Shown here in pieces: positions 33,503 to 38,702 of a stretch of 64,000 nt of DNA (position 1 is its first letter; the number at the start of each line of letters is the position of its first letter). The notes beneath the pieces were generated by a model. That model had not been told where the DNA came from, did not search any database, and saw nothing but the letters and a program-made list of their open reading frames with translations. Made by a program: the position numbers and the translations under genes. Source of the stretch: Antedon mediterranea. Lineage: Eukaryota; Echinodermata; Crinoidea; Comatulida; Antedonidae. Location: positions 19,901,201 to 19,965,200 of the forward strand of contig NC_092670.1 in NCBI RefSeq assembly GCF_964355755.1, written 5' to 3'.

Positions 33503-33567
33503 GTGACATTCTTCAACCAGTAAGAGATGAACCCTGATACACTGCAAAAACAAATAACAGACGAGAG
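33503..33567 (+). pseudogene. Broken USP7 exon 17 of copy 2
   Basis: It corresponds to 24494-24563. A net 5-base loss and changed codons put an in-frame TGA at 33535-33537 (VRDEP then stop). The same lesion is in copy 3 (41395-41459), so it predates the second duplication. Exon 17 therefore cannot contribute coding sequence to copies 2 and 3 in the ancestral frame. Confidence 0.85.
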
Positions 33568-33848
33568 GTACTGAACAGTTTATTTATATTAGTATTTGTA
33601 AAATGTTAGTAAAGTTAGATTTGCAGAACACCATGCATTTCCAAAAGGGAATAAAGTACAGCTGAGAAAGCCTTGATGTTTTGTTACAACTGTCTTGGAC
33701 TTCTGGAGTATTTTCAGACATTAGTACATTTGAGTGGAATATAACGACGTTTTACAATGAGTGTTACATTATAACCAACAAGTGTATAGAAATAATCAGT
33801 TTGGTAATACTTATACACGTTTTTGTCTTTAAATAAAGGAAATTAGAA

Positions 33849-36800
33849 ATGCAAAGAAAAGACAAATCAGAAGCTCATTTATATATGATGTTAAAAGTTT
33901 ACACAGAGGACCAATTCTATGGTCACCAAGGCAACGACCTGTTTGACATGAACAAGATTAAGTCACGGTAATCATTAAAATTATATTGACTGTGAATAAA
34001 TTAATTCAGTTTTCAATTATTCCCTTACATGTAACTTTTGTTTTTAGGGATTTTCAAATTCTCAAAAGCTTAAATCTTTCTGGTGTGATGGAACTGCTAT
34101 CAGATTCGTACGGTTATCCGATTGATAACATGCGCATATGGCCACTAACCTTGAGAACAAACCAGACAAATCGGCCGACAACCTTAGAGGTCGAAGACGC
34201 CGAGAAAACAGTAAATTATATTGTATTTTTTCTCTAATTTATATTTGTAGCAATATCTATTTGTTCATAATGAGCAATAGAAGTGTATTTTGAATTTAAC
34301 ATTTTAAATTTTGTCAGGTGTATGATATTTCAGAGAACGATCCTACGTGGATTGTATTTCTAGAAACAGCAGATCCTGAATGTCAAAAGGCGTTGCCTCA
34401 TTTCGACAAAGAAAACGATGTTCTCCTATTCTTAAAGAAGTACGACCCAAAGACAAAAACCATTTCCTACTGTGGACATATTGCCGTGTCTATCACACAG
34501 AAGATATGTAAGTTGAATGAAGCTGATAATTTAGTGTAGCAGTTAGCTTGGTGGTGTGCTTGCCTTCCAATCCAGGGTTCAACCCTGACTTAGTTTTAGG
34601 GTTGTAATTCACAACTCTTTCTGCTTCACTCCTTTAAGCCTAAAATAATACCAATTACAGTTTATCCATTCTGTAATTGGCAAGTTGGATGCGTCTGAAA
34701 ATATGACATAGCTAGATGAACTTTAATTTACCAATTCTTTCTACATTGAATTATCGTCCCAATCTTATTTTACAGATGAACTAATTCCATTGTTGTGTGA
34801 AAGAGGAGACTTTCCAGAGGGCACTCCACTCATTATATATGAGGTAAGTATGCAAAAATAAATCTGGCACTGCTTCAGATAGCTTTTGCTAGTAAAAGTA
34901 GTGGCTCTAAAACAGCAGCAAAAACAAGCTAATGCTTTGTATTTCTTTAGGAAGTGAAACCAAACTTAACAGAGAAGATACAAGATGTCCGGTTACAGCT
35001 AGACAAAGCAGTGGATGAGTTAATGGATGGGGATATACTGGTGTTTCAAAGGTAAACCTATGATTTTGATATCAGTACAAACTCTTTTGGGACACTCCTA
35101 TTAATGGAACACTTTGTTGGGTCATGAAAAACCTCTTATATAAAGTTTCTACTGTAAATGAACAATATCGTTGCAAGGACGAGAAATGAAAACTTTTCCA
35201 AAGCATGATAACCCGATAAAAAATATACAATGTTGCTACTAGGAAAATGAGTGAAAGTACATGAGAGAAGTATATGTATTCACTGTTTTCCTACATATAT
35301 ATTTCAATTGATGTTTACATTTGTTGCTATAGTGAAGACCCTGAAAATGATCAGTATGAGCTGGCGACAGCAAAGGATTACTTCCGTGACCTGTACTACA
35401 GGATAGAAGTTTTGTTATGTGACAAAACCAATTTAAATGACCCTGGATTCACGCTTACATTGTCCGTCAAAATGAACTACTTCCAGGTATATATTTACAT
35501 TTATATTTAAAGCATTTAATTTGGCGATAACCAAACATAAAACATGAAATTACCATAAATGCAATATTAATTAATTCTTTTTATGTAACAGATAGCCAAG
35601 GCAATTGCGGCCAAGTTAGATACAGATCCTATGTTGTTGCAGCTTTTTAGAGCACAACCGTAAGTCTTTTTAAACTTGCTCTCTTGGAAAGTATTGCTAT
35701 ATTTGTTTGGTGGATGACCACATAAAAAAGTCATTAAGCATCCATGCCTGTGGGTATAGTTCATTTTGGTCCTTGTGTGATAATCCCACAACACACTTGG
35801 GCAATGGGCTTGCATTTATTTGATGCTTTTGTATGATCATCTTGTGCTCATTCATCTTGCGCTCATTCGCCTTGTGCCCATATACCATAGGCTCATTCAC
35901 CTTGCGCTCATTTAATTGTGTGGTCTTTGTTACAGGCATCGAGATGCTCCAAGCCATCCGATTCGTTGTGCTTATGAGGGAACACTACGTGACCTTATAT
36001 TTTCATTAAAACCAAGAACCCCAAACGTTAAGAAGCTCTATTATCAAAGGGTAAGTTAATTAAGTCAAAGGGTAAGTTAAGTTAATTCACTTACAGTACC
36101 ACCCTAATTCTTGTCTATGACTGCCTGTGTTTACACAATTGCTCAAATTTGATTGAGCAGGTCAGCTAATTTGCATATGGCTAGTAACTTGCATAAAACT
36201 TTCTAATCCTTTATAAAGCCTGCACAGCTGGCTGTTGCATTTGATTGTTTGCATTTTCACTTCATTTTGTATAATTTATAGGTGGTAGATTTATTCACTT
36301 TTATACTCTTTTATTTTAGCTCACAATCAAAATCAACGAATTTGAAAATAAGAAGCAATTTCGATGTGTATGGGTCAGTAATAAACTACAAGAAGAGGTG
36401 AGATTATTTTTTTTCTATCTAATTATAAATTATCAGCTTAATTCTGAGTAGGAGAGAACAATAGAAAACTTCTGTTGGGATCTCCTCTCCAAGGATACCT
36501 AACCTACCCTATCTATCTCAGATACTTTGGAAACATAGATTTGATAACATTAGTTCCATATTTTTCTCTTAGGAATTAGATATTATAAAAGTTAGTTATA
36601 AAATTTCTGATTTCCAACTGTCCGTGGTAGAAGTAATTTCCGGGTTTGTGTAATCAATTTGCGACTTCCTGGTATTTGCTGGCAACGTTGGTCGTTGGTG
36701 GGATATTAATTTTTGCTTTTTTTTGTTTATCTTTGGGCCGCGCGTGGAGTTAGTAAAATAAAATTTATACTGCAAATTGATAAAGATCAAATCAAATATA

Positions 36801-38702
36801 TTCATAAATCATTGGAGTATATTGCGGCGAAATTGTGAAATCAGTATATATGATTACATCGGGAGAACTGATGATAAAGCCTATATTTGGTGAAACTCCG
36901 ATAGCCAAAGGGTAGCCGAGTTGTTGCACAAAAACAAATTTTGTAAAAATAATAACATAAGATAAGAGGATGTACTTTTTTATATTTTAGGAAATGTTCC
37001 TTTATACAAATAAGGATGATACAGTAGCAGGTCTACTGATGGAGGCCAAGTTACTAAAGAACCGAACGTTAGGCAACAACGGCTCAGGAAAATTAAGGCT
37101 CCTAGAAGTTATAAGTAACAAAATTCACCAAGTGCCACAAGAGGATGTCTTACTAGAGTGTCTTAACCCAGTTGGTCCTAAAACATACAGAATTGAGGTT
37201 TGTATATTTATTATAAAGTAGGCTCTGTTATAGTCCCATTGGGACAAATGTTTGTTTTCATTTTCTTTTCATGTATCATATGCATTATAGGCCCTCATGA
37301 GACAAGTTTTTGCTTCTAATGAGGGTCCCGGTTATTATTCTGAATATTATTGTGGAATGAATAAAAGAGTGGGAAAAATATTTTTGTTGTGTTTTATTTT
37401 AGGAAATTCCTGAAGATCAGCTGGATTTAAATGAGACGGAATTACTACTATGTGTTGCACACTTTCAAAAAGAACTCTTCTCAATGTTTGGTGTTCCGTT
37501 TCTAATTAGGGTCCAAGAAGGCGAGCCATTTACAGAGGTTCGCGAACGAATAAAAAACCAGTTAGAAATCTCAGAAAAAGAACTCGAAAAGGTAAGTTGG
37601 TTGGCTGCCTTCCAATGCATGTGTCATAGTAAAAACATTATTATCATTATATCAACATCAAAACATGTGTCTGTGTAGCAGTAAATGTAGAAATAAATGG
37701 TTAATTCAATATCCATTGTTTGTTGATATAAAGTTTGCGGTACACCATGTATATTAGTTCTGAAAAGAACTGTTCTTTTCAGAACTAATACACGTGGTGT
37801 ACCGCAAACTTTATACCAATATTTGATTTCGCCATGAAAACCTTCAAAATTGTTGTTTTTACAGATTAAATTTGCTATTGTACTATTGGGGAAGACAAGT
37901 TACATTACAGAGGGTAAGTTTAGTTATTTTTCCCCAATTAATAGCACTGATCAAGTTCATATCCAGGATTGTTCAGGAGCATTAGTTTTCCCCCCAAAAA
38001 GGAAGAATAAGCAAGCACTATGGTCTTTGGAGGCCAACTAGACAGGAGATGTTGACCCTTTGTTGTATGCGTAGCTTAGTGGCTAGAAAAAACAGCTATG
38101 GCGATGATCAGATTCATTCGCCTCTTGCCTGCTAGCACTCGCTAGTTACAACACAGCTAACGAATGTATTTCTTGGTTTCAGATGAATATAGAGTATCAA
38201 TTAAGGACTTTCTACCAGGTAGAGGTGGAGGTAAGTCATTTTAATCCAAACCTATAGATACGACAGTTTTTATAACCTTACAAGTTGGTATTAAGGAAAA
38301 CAACAACACTACCATAATTAATTAGGTGAAATTTGAGGATCAGAAAGCCATAAAGTATAGAATTTTAGATATATCCCCATTTTGAACATATTTGTATTCT
38401 TGGCTTATTCCACTACCTGTTATATGATGGACTTAAGGACTGAGTGGTCTATCTGTCCAACTTCCCAGGTATAGTGTGGCTCAAACTTATTCATGGATGT
38501 CGGTTGATTGACTACATAATCTGATTGGCATTTACCAATTGTACACAAATCATAATATATTGACATTCAAATTGTTTGGTTTTTTTTTTGGAAAACAGCT
38601 GGAGCTATGCAACAAAAGGCTTGGCTAGGCCTGGATCACGTGAACAAGAACAAGCGATCTCGGTACAACTACTTCGAAAAGGCAATCAAAATTCTCAATT
38701 AG
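33849..38702 (+). CDS. USP7 copy 2: UBL-only partial duplicate, open frame of about 550 codons
   Basis: Exons equivalent to USP7 18-31: 33839-33967, 34048-34210, 34318-34507, 34776-34843, 34951-35051, 35333-35486, 35592-35659, 35936-36050, 36320-36397, 36991-37197, 37403-37591, 37865-37913, 38183-38230, 38599-38702. All GT/AG sites and phases are retained and there is no internal stop. An Ile-to-Met change in exon 18 (KLEMQRK) supplies an ATG at 33849, giving 550 residues. The product would hold the five ubiquitin-like domains and the C-terminal tail ([10 protein letters not shown]), but no TRAF or protease domain. In USP7 this region binds partners and activates the catalytic domain, so a free copy could compete or regulate; that is inference. 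Exons may also be used as an alternative tail for USP7 by read-through. No promoter was identified, and it may be a decaying copy. Confidence 0.55.
34530..34640 (+). mobile_element. tRNA-Gly-like SINE fragment, copy 2 intron 20
   Basis: TTAGCTTGGTGGTGTGC (A-box region), TTGCCTTCC (anticodon-arm-like) and GGGTTCAACCC (B box) appear in the order and spacing of a tRNA head. Copy 3 has the same element at 42418-42500 but has lost the B box by deletion. Confidence 0.6.
37724..37817. repeat. Hairpin insertion, copy 2
   Basis: Sequence-identical duplicate of 29841-29934, carried here by the second duplication. Confidence 0.9.

Follow-up and report, generated by a model that had tools for sequence, protein, structure and literature searches.

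The 64-kb window, the whole stretch of DNA that was analysed, has no gaps (N count 0) and contains the USP7 gene followed on its 3′ side by two tail-only tandem copies, with one orientation common to all three. Exons are numbered by the scheme of the preliminary description of this DNA, which presupposes one exon upstream of 17.6 kb. The units are as follows.

17617–30820, plus strand: copy 1, the complete parental USP7 gene (exons 2–31 identified; exon 1 further upstream)
30821–33378, plus strand: 3′ flank or spacer of copy 1, which recurs after copy 2 from 38703, ~0.2% diverged
33503–38702, plus strand: copy 2, tail-only and fully open, from the exon 17 equivalent through the exon 31 stop codon
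41385–46469, plus strand: copy 3, tail-only, nearly identical to copy 2, damaged

The TRAF and catalytic exons of copy 1 are located between 17.6 and 24.2 kb, with the catalytic Cys box (NQGATCYMN) in the exon at 20641 and the catalytic His box in the exon at 23619. Splicing of exons 16–31 (24039–30820) yields a continuous ORF that ends in EKAIKILN and a stop codon. A simple motif scan of 30821–31700 detected neither AATAAA nor ATTAAA, and 3′ processing signals were thus not identified there. Outside the window, USP7 C-terminal sequence had no match elsewhere in the searched genome, and processed copies, which would show transcription, were likewise not found.

The window also contains several repeats. 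A 19-bp satellite (TATTGTGGTGTGTTGATAG) of extreme GC skew, present in about 147 copies, occupies 61130–63931, and a minus-strand open frame runs through the array. A 181-bp tandem repeat of ~11 copies lies directly 3′ of copy 3 (47861–49916). At 1132–1784, a 31-bp unit is repeated 21 times with 100% matches, which suggests that this array expanded very recently. A short dispersed repeat (CTCTGTCTACACTATCAAACT...) occurs in both orientations within introns and flanks (20267–20431, 25515–25584, 58285–58437 and 60028–60197). Intron 28 contains a 97-bp almost perfect foldback (hairpin) in copy 1 (29839–29935) and copy 2 (37723–37819); it is missing in copy 3 and has dozens of relatives genome-wide. 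On the minus strand, a 337-aa open frame at 7552–8565 is BTB/Kelch-like by eye.

The preliminary description had presented 33503–38702 as a protease-less paralogue, and its gene model agrees with the reanalysis in most respects. The span coincides exactly with the distance from the exon 17 equivalent to the exon 31 stop codon. The 14 exons equivalent to USP7 exons 18–31 are intact, with AG acceptors, GT donors, phases kept and no in-frame stop, and the ORF from the exon 18 ATG has 550 codons, where about 550 had been claimed. Exon 17 is frameshifted and carries the reported in-frame stop (TAA), and the TRAF and catalytic part is missing, homology with copy 1 beginning only in intron 16. Three things had been overlooked: copy 3, the recombinant nature of copy 2, and an ATG in exon 17 at 33527. 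The parts of copy 2 are listed below.

33503–33567, plus strand: counterpart of exon 17, with decay (frameshift, TAA) in the 5′ part and an intact donor; 11/65 differences plus a 5-bp deletion
33527–33529, plus strand: new in-frame ATG in exon 17, with G at −3, one codon 3′ of the in-frame TAA
33839–33967, plus strand: exon 18, including the Ile-to-Met ATG at 33849
34048–37197, plus strand: exons 19–27, of the tail-copy lineage, UBL1 to UBL3 and into UBL4, with DELMDGD intact
37403–38702, plus strand: exons 28–31 with the activating C-terminal tail, recently from copy 1

The three-copy alignment shows that the 5-bp deletion in exon 17 is common to copies 2 and 3. With the frame shifted by this deletion, the ATG at 33527 reads directly into the conserved frame. 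The spliced ORF from this ATG has 567 codons and corresponds approximately to human USP7 536–1102, the start being extrapolated from the alignment to human 554–1102. On the 5′ side of the new ATG, exon 17 is decayed and the pyrimidine tract of its acceptor is weakened; on the 3′ side the codons are kept, with 4 synonymous and 2 conservative replacements, although the counts are small. The Ile-to-Met ATG that had been proposed as the start is present in exon 18, but it is probably not the main start, as the in-frame ATG that precedes it in exon 17 is the better fit. Between 33527 and 38702, copy 2 has none of the disabled frames or splice sites that mark a pseudogene.

The predicted protein of copy 2 comprises UBL1–5 and the activating C-terminal tail, with EKAIKILN aligned to human. 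Its product aligns over the full length with human USP7 554–1102 (676 bits) and matches the Pfam families USP7_ICP0_bdg (237 bits, 1–241 of 241) and USP7_C2 (190 bits, 1–203 of 204). The acidic loop of UBL2 (DELMDGD) is intact, and the equivalents of E759, D762 and D764 are kept. There was no match to the UCH (catalytic) domain inside copies 2 and 3, and the Cys and His boxes are absent, so neither copy qualifies as a deubiquitinase.

Copy 3 is damaged at three places. Exon 22 has an in-frame 9-bp deletion adjoining the UBL2 loop. The exon 25 donor has changed from GT to TT, a disabled splice site of the kind that defines a pseudogene, and either read-through or exon skipping leads to a stop near codon 340. 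Exon 31 is truncated and the C-terminus is lost. Copy 3 is probably dying.

The history of the two tail copies was read from alignments of the three units, in which the following intervals were located.

24373–24493, plus strand: stretch of intron 16 of copy 1 where tail-copy homology starts, the 5′ breakpoint of the original partial duplication
37395–37455, plus strand: crossover interval in exon 28 of copy 2, from diagnostic columns in the three copies
35465–35585, plus strand: short gene-conversion tract of copy-1 sequence in copy 2, across the exon 23–intron 23 boundary

By BLAST, 24373–24592 of copy 1 aligns with 33379–33596 (copy 2) and 41261–41478 (copy 3). The original partial duplication was not recent, because copy 1 and the tail copies differ by ~11% on average across their aligned introns. 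Copy 2 is a hybrid: exons 17–27 match copy 3, while exons 28–31, the 3′ flank and the spacer are all but identical to copy 1. At the diagnostic columns, copy 2 is mainly as copy 3 up to 37395, and it is as copy 1 at 199 of 199 columns in 37455–38245. The switch in exon 28 is the product expected of an unequal crossover between copy 1 and a tail copy, an event that these patterns would place recently. Copy 2 has also received a shorter piece of copy 1, since its intron 23 differs from copy 1 at 1/105 positions and from copy 3 at 16/95.

The repeated unit is 7.9 kb and the spacers are only ~0.2% apart, a difference within the allelic range. It is conceivable, though very improbable, that the assembly misplaced two haplotypes in tandem as 7.9-kb units and that each chromosome carries one tail copy. 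The junction inside exon 28 is between paralogues and fits unequal crossover, copies 2 and 3 differ in their 3′ halves and by independent indels, and the assembly is gap-free. Even if the units were misplaced in this way, at least one tail copy stays real.

Because exons 28–31 recently came from copy 1, the intact C-terminus of copy 2 says nothing for selection, and these exons were set aside as evidence of it. Selective constraint was examined by the contrast between exons 18–30 and the aligned introns in copy 1 versus copy 3. The exons had 47 substitutions in 1550 positions (3.0%) and 2 indel events, while the introns had 293 in 2709 (10.8%) and 64 indel events (Fisher P 8e-22 for exons 18–30 versus introns). 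A neutral tail branch, at half the intron rate, was expected to take ~18 indels (Poisson P 2e-6). With copy 1 frozen and the tail branch neutral, 84 exon substitutions were expected where 47 were observed (P 8e-6). Exon 17 differs at 11/65 positions between copies 1 and 3, which is an intron-like rate distinct from that of exons 18–30 (P 1e-5). The amino-acid replacements are conservative, with a mean BLOSUM62 score of +0.52 versus −0.34 at random (P 0.01). Neutral evolution of the coding part is thus rejected by the intron-based and indel comparisons. Synonymous sites are ~6.5–8% diverged, less than introns, and with these sites as the neutral yardstick constraint on the tail branch is no more than suggestive (P 0.04–0.08, and 47 observed versus 54 expected, P 0.18).

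For dN/dS, a check proposed in the preliminary description, the overall value for copy 1 versus the tail copies is ~0.25–0.31; omega on the tail branch may reach ~0.58, and constraint looks relaxed since the split of copies 2 and 3. When replacements were polarised by human USP7, five fell on the tail copies (D130, G173, L205, D219 and G296 in alignment codon numbers) versus one (A103), and therefore selection on the tail copies is relaxed relative to USP7. The changes found only in copy 2 after that split are L338F, P362T, Q405P and TS517GR versus one synonymous change, and evolution since the two copies parted looks relaxed. In exon 30 of copy 2, at 38218–38222, ACATC has become GGTAG, which replaces Thr-Ser by Gly-Arg in the linker preceding the C-terminal tail; this cluster looks like a single multi-base event.

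Gene conversion alone is unlikely to be behind the exon conservation, as synonymous differences are present across nearly all exons and the intervening introns are diverged. Short conversion tracts do exist at the locus and could mimic part of the apparent constraint.

These data bear on whether copy 2 is a young non-functional partial duplicate, an intact-looking pseudogene whose 3′ half was freshly replaced by USP7 and whose 5′ half is still unhit. We regard this as possible but doubtful. Exons 28–31 of copy 2 are indeed copy-1 sequence, the sister copy has lost the exon 25 donor and the C-terminus and carries the UBL2 deletion, and the recent changes in copy 2 are mainly replacements, with the tail-branch omega perhaps ~0.58. 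Against it, exons 18–27, together with exons 28–30 of copy 3, stayed in frame while the introns took 64 indel events, and in simulation the frame survived neutrally with a frequency of <0.001 at the measured rates and ~0.01 at very low indel rates. The earlier interpretation is partly supported: the exon/intron contrast in substitutions and indels, the conservative replacements and the new start speak for a tail-only paralogue with coding-type constraint, but the intactness of exons 28–31 is owed to recent recombination. Over most of its history the tail lineage has probably evolved under selection, though of a laxer kind than in USP7, and its present-day function is uncertain.

Alternatively, read-through could splice exons of copy 2 or 3 onto USP7 exon 17 and produce a USP7 with a variant tail instead of a separate protein. 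The copies lie downstream in the same orientation, their exon phases all match, and conservation holds from exon 18 onward while exon 17 decays. We consider such a 3′ cassette improbable; transcription would have to continue beyond the 3′ end of copy 1 and splicing would have to leave out 14 exons, and the retention of frame and donor in the 3′ part of exon 17, beside the new ATG, suggests that this exon belongs to the mRNA.

The preferred reading is that the tail-only copy arose by partial duplication, gained a new start, came under purifying selection and would encode a free UBL1–5 decoy, and the evidence leaves it about evenly poised between right and wrong. More tentatively, it may be a selected free-standing USP7 UBL1–5 decoy that tunes the partner binding of USP7, whose start came from the 5-bp deletion and whose copy number fluctuates through unequal crossover. 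The course of events begins with a partial tandem duplication from USP7 intron 16, which left a protease-less tail copy. The old frame of exon 17 was lost, and the 5-bp deletion brought the new ATG into frame, giving a candidate free protein of UBL1–UBL5 and the C-terminal tail equal to human USP7 ~536–1102. The exon/intron contrast, the indels and the replacement types suggest moderate purifying selection on the coding part for most of its history. More recently, copy 1 and the tail copy probably recombined by a crossover in exon 28 that doubled the unit; copy 2 would thereby have received a new, undamaged C-terminus, and copy 3 is decaying.

The preliminary description had proposed that the free tail could be a regulator or a decoy. 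The C-terminal tail of USP7 has an activating role (PMC6335408). Free Ubl45, however, switches on the catalytic domain only near 110 μM (PMC6335408), and for this reason activation of USP7 in trans is unlikely and would be negligible at normal concentrations. A decoy is more plausible: the acidic residues of UBL2 bind ICP0, GMPS and UHRF1 (PMC4457826), and a UBL array with an intact UBL2 acidic loop may bind partners of the GMPS/UHRF1 type and make them less accessible to USP7. The free tail is more likely to take up partners than to activate the protease.

Nothing relevant to a previously described tail-only USP7 gene was found in the literature searched. Human SRGAP2C has kept an N-terminal portion and targets the parent protein itself, whereas copy 2 retains only the C-terminal part and its proposed target would be the partners of USP7. 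The two are alike in that a partial duplication led to a truncated paralogue with potential interference with the interactions of the parent (PMC6904453). The USP7/HAUSP C-terminal domain has the same five UBL domains and tail, and the ORF of copy 2 starts within 1–2 residues of the laboratory USP7-CTD construct, human residues 535–1102 (PMC4457826); the difference is that copy 2 stands apart in the genome, has a start of its own and lacks the TRAF and catalytic domains. Tandem partial-duplicate pseudogenes resemble copy 2 in their tandem and partial character, the decay of one edge and the presence of a broken sister copy, but the frame and splice sites of copy 2 are all intact and its exons are far more conserved than its introns.

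Many regulators are stabilised by USP7, whose UBL tail is the docking site for cellular and viral proteins. If the tail-only gene is true, it would be evolution's own experiment in splitting docking from catalysis, and copy 2 would be a clear case of a partial duplicate acquiring a start codon through an indel.
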